A stretch of 64,000 nt of DNA from Polytrichum commune (taxonomy: Eukaryota > Streptophyta > Polytrichopsida > Polytrichales > Polytrichaceae). Position 1 is the stretch's first letter; each line of letters starts with the position of its first letter. Shown in pieces: positions 12,678 to 39,153 of the stretch. A model generated the notes under the pieces. The model was not told the DNA's origin. It searched no databases and worked only from the letters and a program-made list of their open reading frames with translations. The stretch lies in the NCBI GenBank assembly GCA_950295325.1, contig OX485804.1:42396429-42460428 (forward strand), in the 5' to 3' direction. The position numbers and the translations under genes are program-made.

Positions 12678-13470
12678 TTATGGTTGTATGTGTTGTATGT
12701 TGTCTATGATAATTGCTAGGTCATCTGCATGTGTTGTTGTAGTACATGTTGAGGGAAGTGTATTAAAGTGGTATCTCATGTCATCTTTTTTTAGCCATCT
12801 TAAGAGGGGTTTTAGAAAAATAATAAATAGATACGGGCTAAGGATGTCTCTTTGTATTGTTCCTTGGCTGATTTCAATGGGGGATGTTGTTCCAAAGTGA
12901 CTACCTGTGAAGGATATAGTAAAAAATTTGTATATATTTCCGACAATTTCTATTGCGTCCATGGGGTAGCCAAGGTCCTCCATGATGGCTAGAAATCTTG
13001 TATGATTTATAAATTCGAAAGCATTCCTAAAGTCAATGTATGTTAGGTATATGTCTTTTGTGGTAAGTCTTGCATTTTCCAAAGTTGCTATGATCATTTG
13101 GATTTGTCGTGATGTGTTATGTTGTGGACATAATCCTTCTTGGCTAAAGTATAATAATCTATGTTGTTTCCCATAACTTGTAAGAAATGTCGTTAAGGTG
13201 CTAGTATATAGTTTATAGATTGTGTTGGCTAATGCAATTGGTCTGTAATTGCTTAAGTGCGTCGGATCATCTTTCTTGTGTAGTAGAATGATTTTGCTAT
13301 GTTTCCAGTAGTATGGGTTTGATCTTTGTTTGTAGCAATGTTTAAAGAAGACGAAGATGAGGTCTTGCCATGGTAGTGGTAGTACTTTAATTATGTTGTT
13401 TGGGATGTTGTCGAGCCCGGGGGTTTTACCTTTGGTTAGTCATTTGATGTAGCCATCGTAGATTTCTTTG
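12678..13470 (-). pseudogene. Reverse transcriptase domain of LINE copy C
   Basis: The open part (13,097-12,678) reads 'YLTYIDFRNAFEFINH' (first catalytic Asp region), 'GTIQRDILSPYLFIIFL' (the fingers/palm 'QGxxxSP' box) and 'THADDLAIII' (the catalytic xADD box; the usual Y or F is His here). Upstream, in another frame to about 13,470, lie 'NYRPIALANTIYKLY' and 'FSQEGLCPQHNTSRQ', the earlier RT boxes. Frameshifts separate the two parts, so the enzyme cannot be made from this copy. Confidence 0.8.
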
Positions 13471-26884: not shown

Positions 26885-26893
26885 TAAGATAAG
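26885..26893. repeat. Left target-site duplication of the young MULE
   Basis: TAAGATAAG, identical to 38,788-38,796. Exactly 9 bp, as for Mutator-like elements. Confidence 0.92.
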
Positions 26894-26978
26894 GGAGGGA
26901 AGCTATCTTATGAGCGATGAGCAGTGAGCGGTGAGCGGTGAGCAGTAACACATGAGCAATGAGCAGTAACATATGAGC
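26894..26978. repeat. Left terminal inverted repeat with TGAGCRR subrepeats
   Basis: After GGAGGGAAGCTATCTTA come serial TGAGC-type units (TGAGCGA, TGAGCAG, TGAGCGG, TGAGCGG, TGAGCAG, then spaced ATGAGCAA). The outer 60 or so bases pair with 38,720-38,787. Such iterated subterminal motifs are candidate transposase binding sites (inference). Confidence 0.88.
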
Positions 26979-27106
26979 AATGATTCCAAACTTAGTAAAG
27001 ACACACGGGTTTAGGGTACACAACCAAAATTTTGACAAATTAATTGCATATTTTCAATTGTAAATTGCCAATATTTTAAATGAAGCACAAGTGAAAGGGC
27101 CCTATT

Positions 27107-27300
27107 TCCATGGATCATTTAAAACACTTTCAATTCATTGTTGATTTTTATTATAATAATCCAAACCAATACATGTCATTTATTGACATCCTTATACATG
27201 TAGTTACAACCAACACTTGCACAACTACTCACATTCCACAACACCAGCAAGTTCAAGTAGGTGCATAACCTCATTATACGTACATGTAGGTGCCATAATT
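27107..27300 (-). pseudogene. Duplicated 3' end of the MULE transposase gene
   Basis: A diverged direct copy of 27,660-27,842. Its minus strand still encodes 'TYNEVMHLLELAGVVECE' followed by a stop (about 27,290 to 27,225), against 'TYNEVMRLLELAGIVECE' at the end of the real gene. The shared 3' flank includes 'CATTGTTGATTTTTATTATA'. It is a terminal fragment only and not a separate gene. Confidence 0.8.
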
Positions 27301-27399
27301 GTGAGCCACTCAAACTGCTCACGGGTTGAATTAAGGCCCATAATCTACAAATGAAAGGAAATTAGATATTAGAAATAGTCAATATGTAGGTAACTACTA

Positions 27400-27605
27400 G
27401 GTTTTGAGACATCCGCCTGTGGATGCGAGTTGTGTAAGAGACTGGTATTAGGTCTGTATCAACCCGGGTTCGAATCCGGTTGGTTACATTGACTGGTGCT
27501 ATCCCAAATTGAGCTAGTGATAAAGTAGGAATGATCTATAGGCGGATACCAAGAAGACGTTACTACGCGGATGTACGTAGAATCTTCTCAATTATTTTTT
27601 ATTTT
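27400..27605 (+). mobile_element. tRNA-derived SINE, probable
   Basis: Lies between the two copies of the transposase 3' end. It has a pol III B box, GGTTCGAATCC, at 27,467-27,477 and an A-box-like 'GGATGCGAGTTGTGTAAGAG' about 45 bp upstream. The 3' side ends in a T/A-rich stretch (TTATTTTTTATTTTTAG). The tRNA-like part does not fold into a convincing mature tRNA, so a SINE is preferred. No clear target duplication was seen. Confidence 0.6.
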
Positions 27606-27779
27606 TAGAAACTTGTTATTATTTATCCATGTCAATCAATCAAACCGCTCACGGTTGGGTCGTACTGAATCATTTGAAATACTTCCAGCCCATTGTTGAT
27701 TTTTATTATAAAAATCCAAACCAAAACATGTCATATTTTGACATTCAAATATATGGTACTTAATAGACCATTTGCAATA

Positions 27780-30700
27780 CTACTCACACTCTACGATACC
27801 AGCAAGTTCAAGTAGTCGCATGACCTCGTTATAGGTATATGTAGGTGCATGAATGAACTTATCACTCTCGTAATCCACCTTGCACAAAAATCTAAACACA
27901 TAATAAAGATGTTTACAATACACCCATTTTCCTTTCTTTCCCAATGCATGAGAGGACATTTTCGTGAAATCCGGGCATGTGCAATGCGGGATGTCGCCAA
28001 TTGTGACATGGTAGGTGATATCCTGCTTGGAGACAATGTTGATCATCACTCCAAAGCCCGGATAAGGAATGGCAGTGACCCCAACCACATAGTAACCCTC
28101 CATGAGTCCGGCGCTCTCCCATTTGTTTTTGTGATCCGCTAGCGGTGCTGTTGGATTACGACGCACTGTCTTCCCAAACCTGAATGTAGGGTGGGCGTCC
28201 GGGTTTGGTGGCATAGAAAAATGCGAGCGAGGGATGGGAAGAGTTGCGATTGTTGAAAGCCTACGACGAGGGGACAATGCCTCCCTCTGCTGTAGTTGAA
28301 ATCCAGCATCTTCAAGTGCCAAAACCTCCTCTCGCGATAGATTGGTACCTATCTTCACCGCCCACGTGTTGGGTACTATAGGCCAGTCCAACACATATTT
28401 CTTCTTACTGCCACTCACACAACGTTTGATGTCGTCAGGGCAAAACCAAAATTCATACTCCACATTGTTGGGAGAGCGAAATTCCTTCCTGAGCCCTTTG
28501 TATGTTGGAGCAGGTGTGCCATGTTTCCCAGTCCCGACTTTGGCATTGCACATAGTCCCTGTGATGGCCTGTAGTGCCCAACATCGTTTGGCTGAGTTGG
28601 GTGGTAATCTTGCAATGTGCCAGTTGGAAGCAAGACAATCAGTCTCTAACACGGATGTAGTATGAGCCACACCATGAATTGCAGAACTTAACGATTCCTC
28701 TATGCGTTGACGAGTTGCTCGGGTGTTCAGACAGGGAATGGAATAGTTCACTTTGTCGGGTCGATGAGAGTCACAATCAGCACCCGGTGGTAGGTTGAGT
28801 TTGCGTTTGGTGGAACCAAAGAGCTCTGACCCTTCCAATGCACAATCTCTAGTGTTGACGTCTTCTGCCCCTGGATAAGACTTCATGGCATCGGCCAACA
28901 TTTTTGGATCTCCACACCTTGCAGCCGCTTTGAGTTTCAAGGATGCCGAATCAGGACCTTTACCATCAGACCCCCCTTTCAACCATGTCCGGTAATTTGC
29001 AATTTGCATGAAAACACGGATCATGTCGTCCACTGTAGCTTCATATAAACAAGTCATCTTGTTGTCGGACTGTTGGAGCCATTTGTTGTGTACAGTCTCT
29101 GCAAGGTTGCATGTTGGCATTTCCGCACGCTCTTCTATTGTCATATCCTATGAACAACACACAAATACAAGGATAAGACAAACATAAGATAGATTATATA
29201 TTTAGGTTTGGGTCGTTCAACCCAAAATGGCTGCCATGTTTGGGTCGAACGACCCAAACTGCCTACAAGGTTTGGGTCGAACGACCCAAACTGCCTACAA
29301 GGTTTGGGTCGAACGACCTAAACTGTTTGCGTAGTTTGGGTCGTTCGACCCAAAATGGCTGCCACGTTTGGGTCGAACGACCCAAACTGCCTGCCACATT
29401 TGGGTCGTTCGACCCAAACTATTTGTTGTTTGTTGTGTACAGTCTCTGCAAGGTTGCATGTTGGCATTCCCGTACGCTCTTCTATTGTCATATCCTATGA
29501 ACAATACAAAAAGACAAAGATAAGAAAAACATAAGATATATTACATTGAATAATGAAGTTTGATATGTACTTACAAGTAGCATATGGCCACCCCATTGTC
29601 TGTAACGAAAGTGCCAAAATCCCAACCACTCTGAAAGGCCAAGGATGCCTTCCTCGGAGGCAGCTCCAGATGACAACCACCAAGAACGAATCACATGGTA
29701 CTTGGTCTCAGCGTCGTCCATTGTTTTCGCGTCTTTGTAATCCTTGCATATTTGTTTGTGTTGAAATTGCAAGGATGGTTTGATATATTTTTGGGTCACC
29801 TTATCCAAGCTTGCGGACCAATGGAAAAGACATGTACGCTCACGTGCAACCATGGGTAGACTTGGATCACCATCCCCGTAAATCGCCCTCACCGCATTCC
29901 AATTAGCTTGAGCACTATCAGCCATAAACCCTTTGAAGTTTACGTATGGTACACCGTTTTCTGCCATGACAGCATTCAAATTTTCCCAAAAAAGAATTTG
30001 TGCTGCACCATCTTCAGATTGCATGTCACAACACGCAATAGTCAACACTTTACAATATCGACTGTCGTACACATGGCAAGCCATGGTCGTCCAGTCCTTC
30101 AAACGTTTGACATGGTCAAACATAATCCATGAATTCTCCATATCCCCACCGACTTGCATCCTCTTCACAAGCTCCACACCACTACCTGGAAGGTCTACAG
30201 ACATCTTGAAAACAAACACTTTGTCCTTTGACTGCCCTGGGAACCGACTACCATGGACGAATTTGAAAGCAGAGTGGTCTTTGAGCGCCATAATACTATC
30301 CATAGTTCCCATTCCACTACGCAAAAAACGCTTTGATCCAGATACAAAGTTACGACAATTTGGAGAGGCAAGAGTGCTGAATTTGTCCATGACGACCTCT
30401 AGGGATGAACCAACCAAGTGATGGCCTTCGACATTTGCGGGAGATTTGAGAAGGTAATCGGCCAAGAATTGTTTGCTCGCCGCCATAACTATGGCTGAAT
30501 TTTTTGCTGTGGGTGTTTTCAATACTTCATTTGCAACGCATTGGTATGCCATGTCCAATGATTCACGGCATGTGCCATTGGCCACAGGGTGATCATGTAC
30601 ACCAAGATGAATGCAAGCCCTGGACATTCCAACGGATGTGGAGTGGATGTATATGATTCGAGCATTACACAAAGCAATGCACACAGGTGTGGACCGACAT

Positions 30701-31710
30701 ACCTTATACTCGACAGTGGACTTAGTAGGGGGAACAACACCCACAACAAATGGGATAGGAGTTGAACCGGCCCATTCCGTGTTGTTCCGGAGGCCCCCAT
30801 TGCGATTCATGTAATCACAGTAGTCATTATGACATTGGAGATGACCAGCACAAGTAGAGCGCCGGAAGGACAGTCCAAAGTCATTTTGGATATTTGTGGT
30901 TTTGGTGGTGCACCAAGGATGACCGTCGCACATTTTGTCCATGCCGTCCATTGAGCGACCATACGTACTTGGAGCTTTGAGTGCCACAGGATGCAAGAGA
31001 AACAAAACATCACCATTAAAAGAAGATGGTAAGTACTTGACTTCACGAACATCTATACTGTCAAAATCAATGGATGCAAGATCGGACTTTGATCTTTTTC
31101 TTGACTTTGTCAGCTTCAAGGCATCAACCATAGTCAACCCTGTAGATGAAGGTGAAGGGTGTAGTGGAGGACGTTGAGAAGGTGAGATTTGGGGAACCAC
31201 CTTGTTGTACATAAGACCGCAAGGGGATTTGGCTACATGTATAGGAAGTTGGGAAGGAGTAGAATGAACACTTCTAAATGGAAATGGCGATGTGTTTGAA
31301 AGATCAACAGATGCACAAATGTCATCTTCTGAATCTGATAGCACAAACACACTATCATCAAGGGGTTCCACCTTAACAGGTGCGATAGAGGGAATTTGAA
31401 CTGTGGATGTACCGGATTCGTTTGTCAAAATGACAGTTGAAGCTTGCATCTGAGACTCAGAAAGTCCTATCACCCTAAATGAACCAGGTCCTAAGATCCA
31501 CATAAAACCAACATCAGTTCTATTTTTTGGAACCAAAATCGTTTCATACACCTCTCCATCTGCAGAGTACATCTCATGCTCTAAATACACGGTTCCTATC
31601 TGGAGGTTGAATCTTAAACTAAGTAAATCCTCTGAAACACTCACATGACCATCATCTTGGAGTGGCAAGATGAAGGGAACAAAAGATCCATGAGCTCTAA
31701 TGGTAGCCAT
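27780..31710 (-). CDS. MULE transposase (two exons)
   Basis: Exon 1 is 31,710-29,575 and exon 2 is 29,147-27,780. The donor CTT|GTAAGT and acceptor TTCATAG|GAT join in phase 0, giving 712 + 455 = 1,167 residues with no internal stop. Residues 260-375 hold a Cys/His-rich segment (C261, C267, C287, C293, C298, then 'CIHLGVHDHP') resembling WRKY/GCM-type zinc domains of MULE transposases. The DDE core is plausible at D549 ('VYDS'), D598 ('FMADSAQANW') and E729 ('CNLAETVHNKW'), with the MULE CxxH box at C627-H630 ('CLFHW'). A SWIM zinc finger lies at about 1,101-1,125 ('CTCPDF', then 'WVYCKH'). The start is the first ATG of the long frame, facing the divergent second gene. Its role would be cutting and joining element ends in the nucleus. 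Activity is not shown. Confidence 0.9.
29082..29546. repeat. Duplicated splice-acceptor segment flanking palindrome array
   Basis: About 117 bp at 29,082-29,199 (intron end plus first codons of transposase exon 2) is repeated with few differences at 29,429-29,546. The palindrome array lies between the copies. The second copy keeps TTCATAG|GATATGACAATAG and so is a decoy acceptor met first by the minus-strand transcript. Splicing there would give about 20 native codons ('TIEER.GMPTCNLAETVHNK') and then run into the array. Confidence 0.85.
29206..29419. repeat. Palindrome array P1: seven units, exact 32-bp period
   Basis: Units start at 29,206, 29,238, 29,270, 29,302, 29,334, 29,366 and 29,398. 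Each is a near-perfect 22-bp palindrome with core TTGGGTCGWWCGACCCAA, separated by about 10 bp of variable linker. The core holds two CpGs in otherwise AT-rich DNA. The centre alternates between AA and TT. It lies in the transposase intron. A looser array of the same motif is at 34,291-34,486. The symmetry suggests binding by a dimeric protein (inference). Confidence 0.93.
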
Positions 31711-32225
31711 AAAAAATCAAAAGAACATATGAACAACACATCACAAAAATATGGGGTGAATGTTGGTTTTGTATAGAGTTGTGTGAGGAAATGAATGAAA
31801 ATGAAAACGTGTGATACAATAATGGATGGAGATGAAAGCGTGTGATACATAGCATCTAATAATACAGAAGTGGACATAACACAATAATAGTCAGAGAATA
31901 TTTACGAGCAAGATATACACAAAATGGCGTCAAATACTAAAAGTATTGGTAGAAAACAAAAATATATATGTGTGGACTGACGTAGATGTAGAAAGAATTA
32001 AAATTGGTTGGAAAAATAAATTATTATGAATAGAACAAAGTAGGTGTCAGAAAATTTTGGCGGATATAACAAAAATAAACACATAATGACAAACGCGTTG
32101 AAATATCTCGCTCATTGAACGCCAATTACAACATGTGATCGTAATATACGCCGGATTTTGTGAGATAGATACATTGGAAGAATAAATGATAGTACCTGAT
32201 AGAAAACATATCATAGACACCAACG
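31711..32225. promoter_or_regulatory. Divergent promoter region of the MULE's two genes
   Basis: This 515-bp AT-rich interval separates the start codons of the transposase (minus) and the second gene (plus). It must contain the 5' leaders and probably the promoters of both, unless the second gene uses the internal TATA site near 34.13 kb. I cannot pick out a convincing TATA box on either strand. Co-regulation of the two genes is an inference from the geometry. Confidence 0.55.
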
Positions 32226-32757
32226 ATGGTGGACGATGTAGAAAGAACACCCGTGAGGCTGAAGAGAAGACGTAGGAAAGCTTTGTATTTCACTTCCGAG
32301 AAAAAGAGGTTCAGACTGAGTGTGGGAAAGAAGAATGCAAATAAGGAAGGGAAAAAAAACTTGTTGAGTACGGTAGAAGAAACTATGAAGACACTGGATT
32401 TTGATGCGATGGAGGATGATGAAGGTGCAAAGAGCAAAGAAGATATAGATGATCGTATATCAGAGTCCGAATTGAAGACGGGTTCAAAGAAGACGACAAA
32501 CAAAAAGGTAAGTCAGTTCAATGTTCACATAATTTGATAGTGCATAAGTTGTAAGTTAGGACGGAGAACCTTGTACGTTCACTCACATATCATGTAGTAG
32601 CAATTTATAGAAGTTATAAATTAGAGAGGAAAAAACCTATACGTTAATGCACATGGTATATAACAGAAATTTAGGAAGGCTAGAAGTCAGGAGGAGAACA
32701 TTCAGGGTTTATAAGAGCAACATAGGAGGCAAGAAGTTTGGAGGTAAAACCCTATCC

Positions 32758-33412
32758 GTTAACGCACAAGGTTTATAAGAGCAACTTAGGGAGGCCAAAA
32801 GTTGGGAGCTAAAACCCTGTGCGTTAACGCAGAAGATTTGTAATAGCAACTTAGGAAGGCCAAAAGTTGGGAGGAGAAACCCTGTGCGTTAACGCACAGG
32901 GTTTGTAAGAGCAACTTAGGAGGCAAAAAGTTGGGAGGAAAAACCATGTACGTTAACGCAGAGGGTTTGTAAGAGCAACTTAGGAGGCAAAAAGTTGGGA
33001 GGAAAAACCATGTACGTTAACGCACAGGGTTTGTAAGAGCAACTTAGGAGGCAAAAAGTTGGGAGGAAAAACCATGTGCGTTAACGCACATGGTTTGCAA
33101 GAGCAACTTAGGAGGCAAAAAGTTGGGAGGAGAAACCATGTGCGTTAACGCACAGGGTTTGCAAGAGCAACTTAGGAGGCAAAAAGTTGGGAGGAGAAAC
33201 CATGTGCGTTAACGCACAGGGTTTGCAAGAGCAACTTAGGAGGCAAAAAGTTGGGAGGAGAAACCATGTGCGTTAACGCACATGGTTTGCAAGAGCAACT
33301 TAGGAGGCAAAAAGTTGGGAGGAGAAACCATGTGCGTTAACGCACAGGGTTTGCAAAAACAACTTAGGAGGCAAAAAGTTGGGAGGAGAAACCCTGTGCA
33401 TTAACGCACAGG
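32758..33412. repeat. Palindrome array P2: eleven units, 64-bp period
   Basis: The centre GTTAAC (one unit ATTAAC) begins at 32,758, 32,823, 32,888, 32,952, 33,016, 33,080, 33,144, 33,208, 33,272, 33,336 and 33,400. The first two steps are 65 bp and the rest exactly 64. Each core is TGTGCGTTAACGCACA or close to it, extended by CC(C/A)/(G/T)GG to about 22 bp. The linker is uniform ('GAGCAACTTAGGAGGCAAAA'). The array lies in intron 1 of the second MULE gene. Isolated units also occur at about 32,643, 33,908, 33,968, 34,037 and 34,536. Confidence 0.93.
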
Positions 33413-33947
33413 GTTTGTAAGAGCAACTTAGGAAGGCCAAAAGTTGGGAGGTAAAATGACTAGGAGAGCCTAAAAGTAAACAAATATTTATTGTATGAAT
33501 TTAAATCGATCTTCAGAGCGTAGGAACAAAAAAACCATTCAAAACGGGGTTAGAATGCAAGAAATGAGAAATATGTCTACTCAAGTATTCATGCAATACG
33601 TTATAGGAGCTAGAAAATGACACAAAATAGCATAATTTTTTTTTTACCCCGAAACCCAAAATCTACGAGGTCGCCCAAAACAAGGAAATAGATAGAAGAA
33701 TGAGAAAAGAAAATGATTTCAAACCAAAACAAAATATAAGAAGATTTTGTAGCTACGGAGATTTAAATAATATAGCATATTTTTTATTTATTTTTTGGAC
33801 CCGATTAGCATTTTTTCCAGATTTTACAAGTTTTGGCAAATCTACCAATTCCAGACAAATTTTCAAAAAATTTTTTTTTAGCAAATTCAAGTCTCGGCCC
33901 TGTGCGATTAACGCACAGGCCTTATGCGCTAACGCACAGTGGCCTCA

Positions 33948-34067
33948 AAGTTGCCAGCGCAGACCCTGTGCGTTAACGCACGGGGTCTACTTGCCTAGCT
34001 AAAGGCTTCACAAAGTTGGGCAAGTAGACCCTGTGCGTTAACGCATAGGGTCTGCGCTGGCAACTTT
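33948..34067. repeat. 120-bp inverted repeat with a P2 palindrome in each arm
   Basis: The arms AAAGTTGCCAGCGCAGACCC and its complement flank two copies of the GTTAACGC palindrome, with a short centre near 'TAGCTAAAGGCTTC'. This is a palindrome of palindromes within intron 1 of the second gene, just upstream of a possible TATA box. Confidence 0.85.
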
Positions 34068-34124
34068 CTAGCAGCTATGCGGGGCACGAAGAGCCACGCT
34101 AAATATGGACGCAGGGACGAGTAG

Positions 34125-34131
34125 TATAAAT
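34125..34131 (+). promoter_or_regulatory. Possible internal TATA box in intron 1
   Basis: TATAAAT follows GAGTAG, with a pyrimidine-rich 'TCAGTCTTTTTTCTCTC' about 30 bp downstream, as at a plant transcription start. A transcript from here could splice at about 34,224 ('ACAAG|GTTTG') or run into exon 2, where ATG 34,773 is available. The alternative is chance. Confidence 0.35.
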
Positions 34132-34290
34132 TGCCACACCTTCAAAGCATTCAGTCTTTTTTCTCTCATCTATCGGACCAGAGCTCGTCGCTGCAAGCTC
34201 TCTCATCTACAGGTGCAGTACAAGGTTTGTTTGTACTTTCGTGATGACTGGGTAATTGCGCATAATTAGGCGTAAATTACTATCGGCCTG

Positions 34291-34486
34291 GTTTGGGTCG
34301 AGCGACCCAAACTGTCGGCCTAGTTTCGCCCTAGTTTGGGTCGAGCGACCCAAACTGTCCGTCTGGTTTAGGGTCGGTCGACCCAAACTGTCCGTCTAGT
34401 TTGGGTCGCTCGACCCAAACTGGCTGTAGGCGGTTTGGGTCGCTCGATCGAAACCGCGTGGACAGTTTCGGTCGTTCGACCCAAAC
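34291..34486. repeat. Palindrome array P1, second cluster (six units)
   Basis: Units start at 34,291, 34,334, 34,366, 34,399, 34,433 and 34,465. They share the TTTGGGTCG/CGACCCAAA arms of the transposase-intron array but have centres AG, GG, CT or TT and looser spacing (32-43 bp). They lie upstream of exon 2 of the second gene, so both genes carry the same motif in non-coding DNA. Confidence 0.9.
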
Positions 34487-37400
34487 CTCGCGCCCAAGTT
34501 TTGTAGACCTGTAGTTGGACACACAGACCCTGTGCGTTAACGCACAGGGTCTGCCCTTGTAGTTTTGGGGTGAGCGGCCACCCTTATCGTACAATATTTA
34601 AAGGTGCAAATGGTAGTGTCTAGAATCATTTTTGTTATTCTTCCTTGTGTTCGTCGTATTCTGTTGTTATTGTTGTTGCTATTGCTGTTGTTTTTGTAAT
34701 GTTATTGTTAATGTGTTTCTACTGGTTTTGAAATATTTATGAAACTTATTTCATTTGTTTTAGGACCAACCAATGGATTTGGAGAGAACGACTGTTATTT
34801 CTACTGGTGATGATTCTACAATGCATTCAACTCAAGATCGTCCATCTCAACAAGTTCATGTTCATCAGGACATATCGTCAAATCTTCATAATAAGAAAAA
34901 GAAAAAAATAAATGAATCTCTCGATAATTTTGACTCGGATGAAGATAATGATGGTGACAATAAAACCTATCAATAGAAAGTCTGGGAGCTTACGGACAAG
35001 CGAAAGGTTAATTCCACTTCAACAATTTCTTCAATCCGTGCTGGACCGAAATCTCGTTTGCGTGTACCTTTGTGTCGCATGGTTCCAATGCCTATTGTGC
35101 GTCCTGCTTTGAGAGGCGACATCACTAAATTGGAGGCTGACTTTTTCAATGGTTATCGTGATGGTGACCGTGTGTTTTATCTATCGGCTACCGACTGTAA
35201 GGGAAATTTTCAATTTGTAGATGACGAGGTTCGTGCATCTTGGAGCCCAAATTGGCCTCAAGCTAATGCGGTGTTTGAAACTGAGTTAAATGCCGATCCT
35301 TCATTTACATCATACAAGAACAAGATGTTCTTCATATGGGATGGTAATCACAGATTTTTTGCTTGGAAAAGTTATATTGACCGCTTGCATACCGAAGATT
35401 ACGAGCGTCATGTCGTTGTGGATTCCATCATTTTGGCGCCCGAGCTTGATGACATTCCAAGTTTGTTGACTGCTATGCACGACATCAACAAGTAATGTTT
35501 TTACTTCTTTATTTTCATTTATTTCTGGTTTGTATTTTATTATTTGAATTATATCATCCTAAATCCATGAATTCAATATTTTTTCAAGTCAACAGAAAAC
35601 TCTCACGTTTCTACCAATTTGGTGCATACTTTGTATCGGATGCAAAGTATTGGCACCATGCCTTTGACTTCTTTTAAAAAACAACTGGATCCTAGAAGTT
35701 ATAAGCGATGTGAGGAGAAGTCCGTTGAAACTTGGTATTCTTTGACGCGGCCAATTTTTCTTGATTATATGTACAGTGTAAGTTTTTCTAGCATTTCCTA
35801 CTATGTGTTTAATGTTTATTTATCTTTCATTTAGATCACATCTATATGTACTTATTAATTTTGGATTTTGTTTGATTTTTCAGCAAGAACTTGCCGAGGC
35901 TAGCGATATTGCTCTCAACCTTTACAATGAAACCCATCCTCTTGAACGAACTTCAGAAGGAGTTTCTAAAGCAATGTCCGCAGTTGTCAACAAAAAAACG
36001 TGCAATGTTGTCTTCTAGTTTTACAAAACAACTAGCAATTGCTGACATCAATCTCACCCCTGCTTTTCTTGAAGAAATTAAGCACCATTGGGGTTCATTT
36101 TCGGTGCCTGAAATGTTACAAGAGAAACTTCATCGTGTTGCTGTTAGTAATGTGGATCCAGATGTCAAAGTCGGATGGCTCAAGCTTTGGAATGGCAATA
36201 GATTTGACAAAAATGCATTGCATTTCCCGAAATCACCCCTCTCTGATTTTGCACTTGATGATTGGTTATCAAAGGCTACATATTGGGCACAGTTAGAGAA
36301 AAAAGCTATTGAAGAGCTTCAAAGTATTCTTTCATCTCCTCTTCAATTGCCTGCAGATGTGCCTACTCTCTCCGAATATATCCAAACCTGGAAGTTTGCG
36401 GCTTTCAATTCAATATTCTATCGTGAATTCAAAAGCGGAAAAGTAAAAAAACACAACGTTTGGGATGAGCAACCGAATATTGATCTTGCTATGAAGCGTG
36501 TTCTATAGAGGTACAACTTATTCTTTATTATTTCTTGATATTTTTTCATTACATTTTACTTTTCATTCAATATTTGGCTCATAATATTTTTGTGTGTAGG
36601 TATTTCCGATATGTTTTGATTCCGCACAAATGCGTTATAGGAGAACCTCGTTTTTTTCCAAATTGGCGTGACACTGGTGCGGAAGACTCATGCATGTTCA
36701 CTACTGAGATTTGTTTGGATTGGTCGCTCCCACACTATGAGGATTGTGGTTGGTATCTTGATTGTCCTAAGGATGCATGTCCGTCAAGTGAGAAGACAAT
36801 CCGTCAGATAAATGATGCCAAAAATGTAGATCCTCGTGATACTGCAATTTTGCAAGCACAAATTGTGCAGCTTAAACTTAGAGAGCCAGAACCAAAAGAG
36901 ACAAAACGTCGTAAGAGAAAACATGTTCCTGAAACCAAAATACAAGGTCAATCGGAAATTTCACAACATGAAGAATTGCTTGTTCTTTCCAATGATTTGG
37001 ATAAGAATACACTTGGAGGCGAAAGTTCAAAATCCGGGTGCGATGTATTGAAATTTCATTACTCTAGCACCTATGACGCTATTCATCGTGCGCCAACGAA
37101 TGTTTTGATAAAAGAGTTATTCATACTGAAGAACTTTCTTACGCTCTCTTTTGCTCGATCTACTGCTGTCAAGAACAAGTCTGAAGGGGTTGAAGTAAGC
37201 CCTCCTGAGTGGATCCAATGGCGGGCATTTCTTGAAAATGTAAGTAATCTTCATTTTGTATTTTCTGTAATGTTCTTACTTTCATTTGGATTTTATTTTG
37301 TGTCTTATATTGTGATATGTTGTGGTATTTCAATTCAAAGACAATCGCGAATTTCATGTCATGGGAAGTCCGACTCCATTTGCCGTTGACTTGGTTTTTC

Positions 37401-38719
37401 TGCAATTTCCGGACGGTTTTGACTTCAACCTCTCCAATAGACCTGCTGAAATTCCTCTTTGGAATAAATATGACAAGAACTGGATGGTTGCAACAATGTC
37501 CTTGTGCAAGTCCATCTTGTCTGATGATGGCGTCCTCATAGTATTTTCTGCTATCGATATGCAAACCAAGAAGGTTTTTAATTCAACCTTACACAACGGC
37601 AACATGAAAGTTCTTAGGACTTTTATTTGCCTCAATTCGTACATGGTGTTCAAGGATCCGGAGTCTCCAACCTACACCGTAAGTATAACACATCACAATT
37701 GTTTCTATTTAATTATTTTGGTGTTATTTGCATTGTATATAGTTTTAATACAATTTACATTTTTTTTGTAGACTCCGGCATTTATGGCTCATGTCTTGGT
37801 AAGGGATTTTACTACCAAAAAATCCACGAGACAACCAAACTCCACTTTTTTCGGCACTGGATTGAAAAGCAAAAACTTGCTTTTCAATTTTGTGGATGAA
37901 AAAAACACGCTTCTTCAAAAATCGGGAAGACCTTGGAGGGGGCCATATCAAAAATCGCCGCGTTTTTTTCAAGATCTTATTGAATTGTTTACACCATCGA
38001 ATGGACGCGTTGTTGATTTGACATGTTCCACTGGAGCATCTATCCTAGCAACACGCGCATGTGGCAGACATCTTCTTGCATTTGAGGGTGATAATGACAT
38101 GTTTGAGCACATATTAAAACCGCTTTTGGAAAAGGTTTTGAAAGAGGGGTCATCTAAGGAGAATATACAAGATCTCACAAAAGAAGATAATGACCTCTCG
38201 GATGAGGAGATGCTTGAATTTGAGTGTGAGTAAGTTTTGATACAAATTTTTTTTATTCAATTCATTCGTTTCATTCAATTCATTGGTTCATTTTTATTTC
38301 TTCACATTATTTACATGTTTCATCGATTTGATTTCAGGAATACGATTGGAAAGAGGACATGTCTCCCGTTTTGGGCACATAGACAATTCCTACGAAGTCC
38401 AAGTCGTAGCCCGCGTCTCCCATCATATGCCGAGAATGTTGCAATTGCAATGTTGAATCTCGAAGATTCGGATCCAAATGAAGAATCTTGCTATAGTTCC
38501 AAAATCAATTCGCAATGCAAAGGTGCTCGAATATATATAGATGACGAGGCAAAAGATAGTTTCATGTCTAGTGCTACTACTTATGAATAAATTTTTGGAC
38601 TTCATGTTGTTTATCCTTCTCAACCCTCTTATTACTAAACCCTAAAATCATCATTTTTAAGGCCACAATTCCACGGTTATAGGATATTGGTGGCCCTATT
38701 ACCAAAATTTTCATCTTCC

Positions 38720-38787
38720 TCACTGCTCATAAGTTACCGCTCATCGCTCACCGCTCATTGCTCACCGCTCATAAGATAGCACTCCCC
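38720..38787. repeat. Right terminal inverted repeat of the young MULE
   Basis: Read inward on the minus strand, GGGGAGTGCTATCTTATGAGC is followed by TGAGC-type units and GTAAC, matching the left end with scattered differences. TAAGATAAG follows directly at 38,788-38,796. Confidence 0.9.
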
Positions 38788-38796
38788 TAAGATAAG
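38788..38796. repeat. Right target-site duplication of the young MULE
   Basis: TAAGATAAG, an exact match to 26,885-26,893. Confidence 0.92.
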
Positions 38797-39153
38797 GGAC
38801 GCGAGCCTTAGAAAAGTAACTGACAAAGGTGAATGGGCAACAACCATTTGAAGGTAGGCAGGGAAGAAGATGAGTTGGCTCAGGGAAAATTAAAACAAAA
38901 TAAAATTGAGGACAAGGGGAGGGGAAAAAGAAGGGAATTAAGAGGGAAGGAGAAGGCAACAACAAAAGGGAAAAAATAAAAGAATAAATTCCAGAATTTT
39001 TTGGAAGGAACGATAAGAATAAATGAATTAGCGATATTAGGGCCCGATTAGTCTATTTTTGAACATTTTGGCCACAAAAGTGCAAATTTCCACTAGACTA
39101 AGGAAATTTTAGAATTTTTTTGAAAGAGAAGCATTTTGAGCGCTTACATCTAA

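Follow-up and report, generated by a model that had tools for sequence, protein, structure and literature searches.

A Mutator-like transposon family of the moss Polytrichum commune with intronic palindrome arrays and a divergent gene combining ParB-like and methyltransferase-like regions

Transposons that carry a gene of the ParB-methyltransferase type next to their own transposase have been described in algae. The 21.5-kb transposon Sola1-1_Ec32 of the brown alga Ectocarpus encodes, on the opposite strand, an accessory protein of 1,104 amino acids with ParB-like and methyltransferase parts (PMC12477816), and the available text of that paper refers to examples from green and red algae (Iyer 2011, Petroll 2025). 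In Arabidopsis, VANC motifs occur as tandem repeats in the introns and noncoding parts of their own VANDAL elements, according to the accessible portion of PMC5735166. Here we analyze a stretch of 64,000 nucleotides of the moss Polytrichum commune (assembly GCA_950295325.1, contig OX485804.1, positions 42,396,429 to 42,460,428 of the forward strand; hereafter the window), which harbors, at positions 26895-38787, an 11,893-bp element resembling Mutator-like elements (MULEs). It bears a transposase gene and a second, divergent gene (gene 2) that joins a likely ParB-like region to a methyltransferase-like C-terminus. The original prediction, made from the letters of the window, had noted that VANC-type proteins are not known as ParB/methyltransferase fusions and had inferred a MULE lineage that acquired such a prokaryote-like module; the combination in a transposon is not new, having already been proposed for algae (PMC12477816). 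What is new is a MULE-like land-plant element with palindrome arrays in its own introns: search listings of the open-access literature gave no Mutator-like element and no moss with a ParB-methyltransferase gene, and the words ParB and methyltransferase are absent from the available text of a survey of Mutator elements (PMC6446971). The best explanation for these features, put forward tentatively and by analogy, is that gene 2 encodes a self-addressed, VANC-like anti-silencing factor of the transposon.

The same genome contains ten further, nearly full-length matches to the window element, and both termini are common to all of them. Each of the 11 copies, the window's included, is flanked by a perfect 10-bp target site duplication (TSD) at a different insertion site, and the terminal inverted repeats (TIRs), approximately 69 nucleotides long, contain 7-bp TGAGCGG-type repeats. 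MULEs are typically recognized by a TSD of 8–11 bp together with TIRs, and both hallmarks are present here. The inverted ends had been predicted, as had the two-exon transposase and the divergent eight-exon gene, both of which lie within the bounds; the duplication, however, spans 10 rather than the predicted 9 bp, and the element starts at 26895 instead of 26894. The transposase (minus strand) and gene 2 (plus strand) point apart from a common upstream region.

Membership among the MULEs is suggested by the TSD, the TIRs and motifs read by eye, but the PF10551 (MULE transposase) profile gives no match. Spliced from two minus-strand exons (Table 1), the transposase comprises 1,167 amino acids; exon 1 is open in copies L051 and L053 and contains one stop in L041. 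Its putative DDE and C2H motifs were read by eye, and a SWIM match (E = 0.068–0.095) lies below the cut-off. PF10551 matches neither exon 1 nor the spliced protein, the element's transposase is not among the 142 PF10551 places listed for the genome, and a comparison by hhalign with seven of this genome's own PF10551 members was not significant, with a transposase profile close to a single sequence. As a separate observation near the left end, a 184-bp direct duplication (81%; window 27111-27293 and 27666-27848) lies on either side of a segment of approximately 360 bp that is 86% like a stretch outside the element of copy L039; segment and flanking duplication are probably a nested dispersed repeat.

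The association of the two genes recurs throughout the assembly (408 Mb in 64 contigs), in which the listed family matches all fall on seven large contigs of 42–78 Mb. The NAC domain PF02365 has 28 exon matches in this assembly, read as 14 genes, and none in 14 control prokaryotes, in keeping with a land plant; so few genes suggest a bryophyte. A 489-amino-acid part of transposase exon 1 gave 2,454 candidates, the best 87 of which were scored (85–100% identity), and at 62 of these 87 places a ParB-like exon lies on the opposite strand, 1.9–6.2 kb away. Among the 25 that remain, eight show a divergent match to the methyltransferase family PF01555 at a distance of 6.6–9.0 kb, all eight below the family cut-off, and 17 have neither a ParB-like exon nor a PF01555 match among the matches listed. 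The ParB-like places used for linkage number 262, drawn from the best 150 scored of 1,211 candidates found with the ParB-like exon (identity from 100% to approximately 45%) and from another 150 listed matches to a query from a diverged copy, 112 of them taken as new after 38 overlapping rows had been dropped. Among 115 chromosomal PF01555 matches (E up to 10, mostly weak; three of 118 were dropped, on the small contigs C10 and C12), 44 have a ParB-like exon on their own strand within 12 kb upstream, against two in a mirrored control. The conserved gene order in several copies to which the original prediction had looked for support is thus present, within this one genome. This recurrence and linkage, and the constraint described below, make a chance occurrence of the two-gene element unlikely.

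Gene 2 has eight plus-strand exons (32226-38590) and encodes 1,173 amino acids in intact copies. Compared with its sister copies, the window's gene carries five lesions: two stops, a 1-nucleotide insertion and the loss of two splice acceptors. It is intact in three of the ten other copies (L041, L051 and L053), with a single frame through exons 2–8 to the final stop, six GT/AG junctions and an open exon 1. Each of the remaining seven has a defect, the mildest being those of L039, which is one nucleotide short and reads past the final stop, and L049, with one GG acceptor. Such damage, in the window and in seven of ten other copies, is what would be expected of a passenger, captured but without function for the element. 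We nevertheless consider this reading very improbable because gene 2 is under selective constraint: among nine pairs of copies, the ratio of nonsynonymous to synonymous divergence (dN/dS) is 0.12–0.16 in four between-group comparisons and 0.26–0.41 in five within-group comparisons, and the full frame persists in the three intact copies. For L041 and L053, dN is 0.028 and dS 0.226 (ratio 0.12; 63.5 versus 122.5 changes), and their introns differ by 12.5%, their exons by 6.2%. The methylase part of the same pair has dN 0.011 and dS 0.056 (ratio 0.20), and its ratio between L041 and L057 is 0.42. For the transposase, six pairs were compared, five with ratios of 0.20–0.58 and one close pair, with 18 changes, at 1.42. 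Recent activity of the family is suggested by the intact copies, by the perfect TSDs and by pairs as similar as L051 and L053 (dS 0.011). Separately, a special methylation decay of the window copy was considered and rejected: 13 of its 21 private changes are C>T or G>A, yet six sister copies behave likewise (56–82%).

The region encoded by exon 2 is likely to be ParB-like, judging from a box-II-like motif and the order of its elements. The exon contains FIWDGNHRFFAWK, DGN is invariant across 16 aligned sequences, and the succession of strands and helices, assessed by eye, is that of ParB N-domains. The two peptides singled out in the original prediction, WDGNHRFFAW and VVDLTCSTGASILA, are both present in gene 2. 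Profile searches give this identity no support. Homology to ParB found no match in Pfam, PHROGs, NCBIfam or PDB sequences; PF02195 matches neither the gene 2 protein nor any chromosomal place; and a hidden Markov model (HMM) of 11 phage ParB N-termini did not reach the plant proteins at E = 10, while nine of 200 shuffles were reached. Nothing significant for ParB emerged from tblastn against phages and plasmids, an IMG/VR scan and one Spo0J comparison, and hhalign against phage ParB aligns exactly the box-II-like stretch, but with Prob 0.8% and E = 0.069. The ParB homology proposed earlier is accordingly not established, the motif and the order of elements being its support; we place our expectation higher than these searches would warrant because of the published algal parallel (PMC12477816). 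As an aside, all four PF02195 matches and the three strongest PF01555 matches of the assembly fall on small contigs (C10:4592-15353, C12:29034-30278 and C23:8829-9982), with both domains in one frame of 722 amino acids on C10 and of 501 on C12; these contigs look like bacterial or phage contaminants.

The C-terminus of gene 2 is, by its profile matches, a permuted N6/N4-type methyltransferase domain, as the original prediction had it. Exons 6–7 match PHROG_67 (DNA methyltransferase) at E = 1e-8 and PF01555 at E = 1e-4 (22 bits, under the cut-off of 26.7; residues 49–228 of the spliced C-terminus); the match crosses the exon 6–7 splice junction, and motif IV precedes motif I, which is the permuted order. 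Other searches returned less: two methyltransferase families in NCBIfam at E = 0.055–0.059, and, for the whole gene 2 protein, a best phage tblastn match that fell on motif I of DNA methylases (E = 0.02). An HMM built from five phage methyltransferase sequences did not reach the plant protein at E = 10 and did reach 36 of 200 shuffles; we preferred the PHROG_67 and PF01555 models, which are larger library models. No viral relatives of the methylase part were found.

Whether this domain still modifies DNA bears directly on the function of gene 2. An active enzyme would mark the DNA of its own element with N4-methylcytosine or N6-methyladenine and so alter its epigenetic state. This alternative agrees with the PHROG_67 and PF01555 matches and their permuted N6/N4 type, as well as with two chromosomal places that exceed the PF01555 cut-off, C4:44111740 (32.2 bits) and C1:9662150 (30.6 bits); a third, C5:16865322 (25.5 bits, below the cut-off), has a 577-amino-acid frame like those two and lies 8.4 kb from a transposase. 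The same idea has been proposed for algal transposons in the available text of PMC12477816, and in bdelloids a captured bacterial N4C methyltransferase is described as placing N4-methylcytosine at transposons (PMC8885841). Against it, in alignments made by eye, the position of DPPY reads QFPD in ten of 11 copies, the remaining one having a stop there, so that no copy has the catalytic [DNS]PP[YFW] motif, and the S-adenosylmethionine (SAM) motif, motif I, reads TCSTG instead of FxGxG. PDB sequence searches with the methylase part found no methyltransferase (one run gave a single unrelated match at E = 4.2, the other was empty). We therefore regard base methylation by this protein as unlikely; because motif IV is degenerate, a non-catalytic role is favored, and catalysis has presumably been lost in this subfamily. 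Thus, the 'modifying' module of the original prediction survives as a methyltransferase-like domain, whereas its modifying role is doubtful here.

A candidate address for gene 2 lies in the introns. The palindrome TGTGCGTTAACGCACA (up to two mismatches) is present 15 times in the window, where 0.03 sites would be expected, in gene 2 intron 1 only, and GGGTCGNNCGACCC (up to one mismatch) 12 times, with the same expectation of 0.03, in introns of both genes, with seven of the 12 in the transposase intron. All 27 sites are intronic and none lies in coding sequence. Both palindromes occur in all 11 full-length copies, intronic placement having been scored in the window copy. Genome-wide, TGTGCGTTAACGCACA has 694 exact sites, its reversed control none; among the 50 sites listed, 43 have one of the family's ParB-like exons no more than 6 kb away, and seven lie in a stretched copy at C1:438-482 kb. 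For GGGTCGNNCGACCC the count is 10,102, against seven for its control.

These arrays also bear on two further alternatives. Gene 2 could be a transposition co-factor, a MURB-type accessory protein that binds element DNA in aid of the transposase and uses the arrays as architectural sites. The recurrence of the divergent two-gene layout at 62 of 87 transposase places, including copies with perfect TSDs, would accord with this, but the window's arrays are intronic instead of terminal, and the 7-bp repeat found at the termini is a different one; such a role seems unlikely. Alternatively, gene 2 could encode a sequence-specific repressor that limits its own element or rival families sharing GGGTCGNNCGACCC, a palindrome common to at least one other transposon. 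Given how closely the listed TGTGCGTTAACGCACA sites keep to the family, we judge a repressor to be decidedly unlikely.

Observations on the arrays speak both for and against a self-address private to this family. A GGGTCGNNCGACCC array is also present in another transposon, and hence this palindrome is not private, and 82 of 100 listed GGGTCGNNCGACCC sites fall in three clusters for which no ParB-like exon is listed. In a survey of 30 close ParB loci (the window's included), eight loci of other PF10551 transposases and two diverged stretches, TGTGCGTTAACGCACA was found at 30 of 30 close ParB-exon loci and GGTTTCGGNNCCGAAACC at none of the 30. The diverged relative L059 (43–46% ParB identity) has 14 GGTTTCGGNNCCGAAACC sites (up to two mismatches) and neither TGTGCGTTAACGCACA nor GGGTCGNNCGACCC. 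By contrast, the diverged relative L060 (C4:43302560-43304559), a stretch 2 kb upstream of a ParB-like exon with 49% identity, paired with a transposase with 85% identity, has GT/GA-rich repeats and no palindrome array. The arrays may therefore be family-specific, judging from a very small sample: 30 close loci and two diverged stretches, of which L059 has another palindrome and L060 none.

Three side observations concern the same arrays. The three GGGTCGNNCGACCC-rich clusters (C1:616-626, 1180-1191 and 2115-2126 kb) each span approximately 10 kb with a similar layout and may represent a further abundant family of elements that shares this palindrome. The flanks of copy L053 (C1:63978325-63994324) hold, on the left, an open frame of 433 amino acids without a Pfam match and, on the right, an array of approximately 78 bp of the shared palindrome GGGTCGNNCGACCC; this copy seems to have inserted in another element. 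In the window, by eye, the start of transposase exon 2 and its acceptor are duplicated within the intron (29093-29157 and 29430-29505), beside the palindrome array.

Divergence along the element, examined by aligning six of the ten copies and the window, is uneven. Between L041 and L053, dS reaches 0.50 in the ParB-like part, compared with 0.037 for the transposase and 0.056 for the methylase. In 300-bp windows of the same pair, the transposase exons differ by 1–3%, the transposase intron window that contains the array by 9%, the array region of gene 2 intron 1 by 5–16%, ParB-like exons 2–3 mostly by 7–13%, exons 4–5 by 3–11% and the last 1.4 kb, the methylase end, by 0.5–3%. Mixed divergence is also seen at C4:43307975, where the transposase is 85% identical to the window's and its ParB-like exon, at C4:43301918, only 49%. 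Our reading is that the middle segment may have been exchanged between elements. The pattern is not free of exceptions: L041 and L053 also diverge by 5–7% over their leftmost 0.9 kb, which blurs the blocks; L053 and L057 differ by 6–18% in the array region and by only 2–7% in ParB-like exons 2–3, contrary to strict co-exchange; and array turnover alone may explain part of the divergence.

On the anti-silencing reading, the gene 2 product would be the element's own DNA-binding factor. Its ParB-like part would recognize the short palindromes arrayed in the introns of both element genes, and its methyltransferase-like C-terminus, catalytically degenerate here, would act as a module that binds DNA or SAM or makes contact with proteins. 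From its sites in the arrays, the protein would counter or exclude host silencing and keep the element expressible, as VANC does for VANDAL elements in Arabidopsis. Both binding to the palindromes and an effect on silencing are inferred from sequence. A more specific version, which we hold to be rather unlikely, is a ParB/parS-like epigenetic shield: intronic palindromes of 14–16 bp would load the element-encoded ParB-like protein with its dead methyltransferase, the protein would coat the element and block host methylation or silencing, and recognition domain and arrays would be exchanged between elements, diversifying the self-address.

Table 1 Features of the element in the window (TSD, target site duplication; TIR, terminal inverted repeat)
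Feature	Position	Strand	Remarks
Left TSD, TAAGATAAGG	26885..26894		Same letters as 38788-38797
Left TIR	26895..26963	+	Aligns with reverse complement of right end; TGAGCGG-type repeats; terminus common to 10 copies
Transposase exon 2	27780..29147	-	Open reading frame; CNLAETVHNKW motif and SWIM-like CxC..CxH, read by eye
Transposase intron	29148..29574	-	Bears GGGTCGNNCGACCC palindrome array at 29210-29415
Transposase exon 1	29575..31710	-	712 amino acids open; DDE/C2H-like motifs by eye
Gene 2 exon 1	32226..32507	+	Basic N-terminus; open in 10 of 11 copies; donor GTAAGT
64-bp tandem array, gene 2 intron 1	32703..33456	+	Carries TGTGCGTTAACGCACA palindrome
Further TGTGCGTTAACGCACA and GGGTCGNNCGACCC palindromes, gene 2 intron 1	33896..34560	+	Motif scan
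Gene 2 exon 2	34764..35491	+	ParB-like region (FIWDGNHRFFAW); TAG 34974-34976 in window copy, absent from 10 others
Gene 2 exon 3	35588..35777	+	Acceptor lost in window copy (AG>AA)
Gene 2 exon 4	35884..36510	+	Window copy: 1-nucleotide insertion near 35991, TAG 36506-36508
Gene 2 exon 5	36600..37239	+	Comparison of copies
Gene 2 exon 6	37334..37678	+	Methyltransferase motif IV region (VDLVFLQFPDG); acceptor lost in window copy (AG>AA)
Gene 2 exon 7	37772..38229	+	Methyltransferase motif I (VVDLTCSTGAS)
Gene 2 exon 8	38338..38590	+	Comparison of copies
Right TIR	38719..38787	-	Aligns with left end; terminus common to 10 copies
Right TSD, TAAGATAAGG	38788..38797		Same letters as 26885-26894

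Elsewhere in the window, a minus-strand open frame at 12681-13439 resembles, by eye, the reverse transcriptase of a long interspersed nuclear element.

Set beside the systems known so far, the moss element shares individual traits with four of them. Its divergent gene, held within the element bounds and conserved across copies, is a trait common with the ParB-methyltransferase accessory genes of algae. As in Sola1-1_Ec32, the gene lies opposite the transposase strand and encodes a protein of similar make-up, with ParB-like and N4/N6 methyltransferase domains (1,104 amino acids there, 1,173 here). Compared by description only, the two differ in that the algal transposon belongs to another superfamily, Sola1, and to a brown alga, whereas the present one is MULE-like, makes a 10-bp TSD, resides in a land plant and has a degenerate motif IV; the available description of Sola1-1_Ec32 mentions neither arrays nor a target sequence (PMC12477816). 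Phage fusions of ParB with an N6_N4 methyltransferase (L063, L064, L067, L069 and L071) have the same order, ParB N-terminus first and methyltransferase after it, but are only 359–437 amino acids long, and profiles from phage proteins miss the plant protein. The N4CMT of bdelloid rotifers is likewise a permuted methyltransferase of the PF01555 type that a eukaryote has captured and that is connected with transposons; unlike gene 2, it is described as an active host gene with a chromodomain, linked to transposon silencing and not transposon-borne (PMC8885841).

In anatomy the element resembles the VANDAL elements of Arabidopsis with their VANC proteins: both systems are Mutator-like, carry extra genes and have short motif arrays, dynamic in their repeats, in introns and noncoding DNA; in VANDAL elements the motifs are family-specific (PMC5735166, PMC10398659), and in the moss they may be. 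VANC motifs are non-palindromic and share one orientation, and the accessible text describes no ParB/methyltransferase architecture for VANC. The moss element, for its part, carries a candidate address in its intronic palindrome arrays and a ParB-like segment more diverged than its transposase and methylase ends, and this address makes both binding and anti-silencing testable. If the proposal is true, transposons would have arrived at a VANC-like solution a second time, independently and outside flowering plants, which would point to sequence-addressed self-protection as a strategy that they adopt repeatedly.

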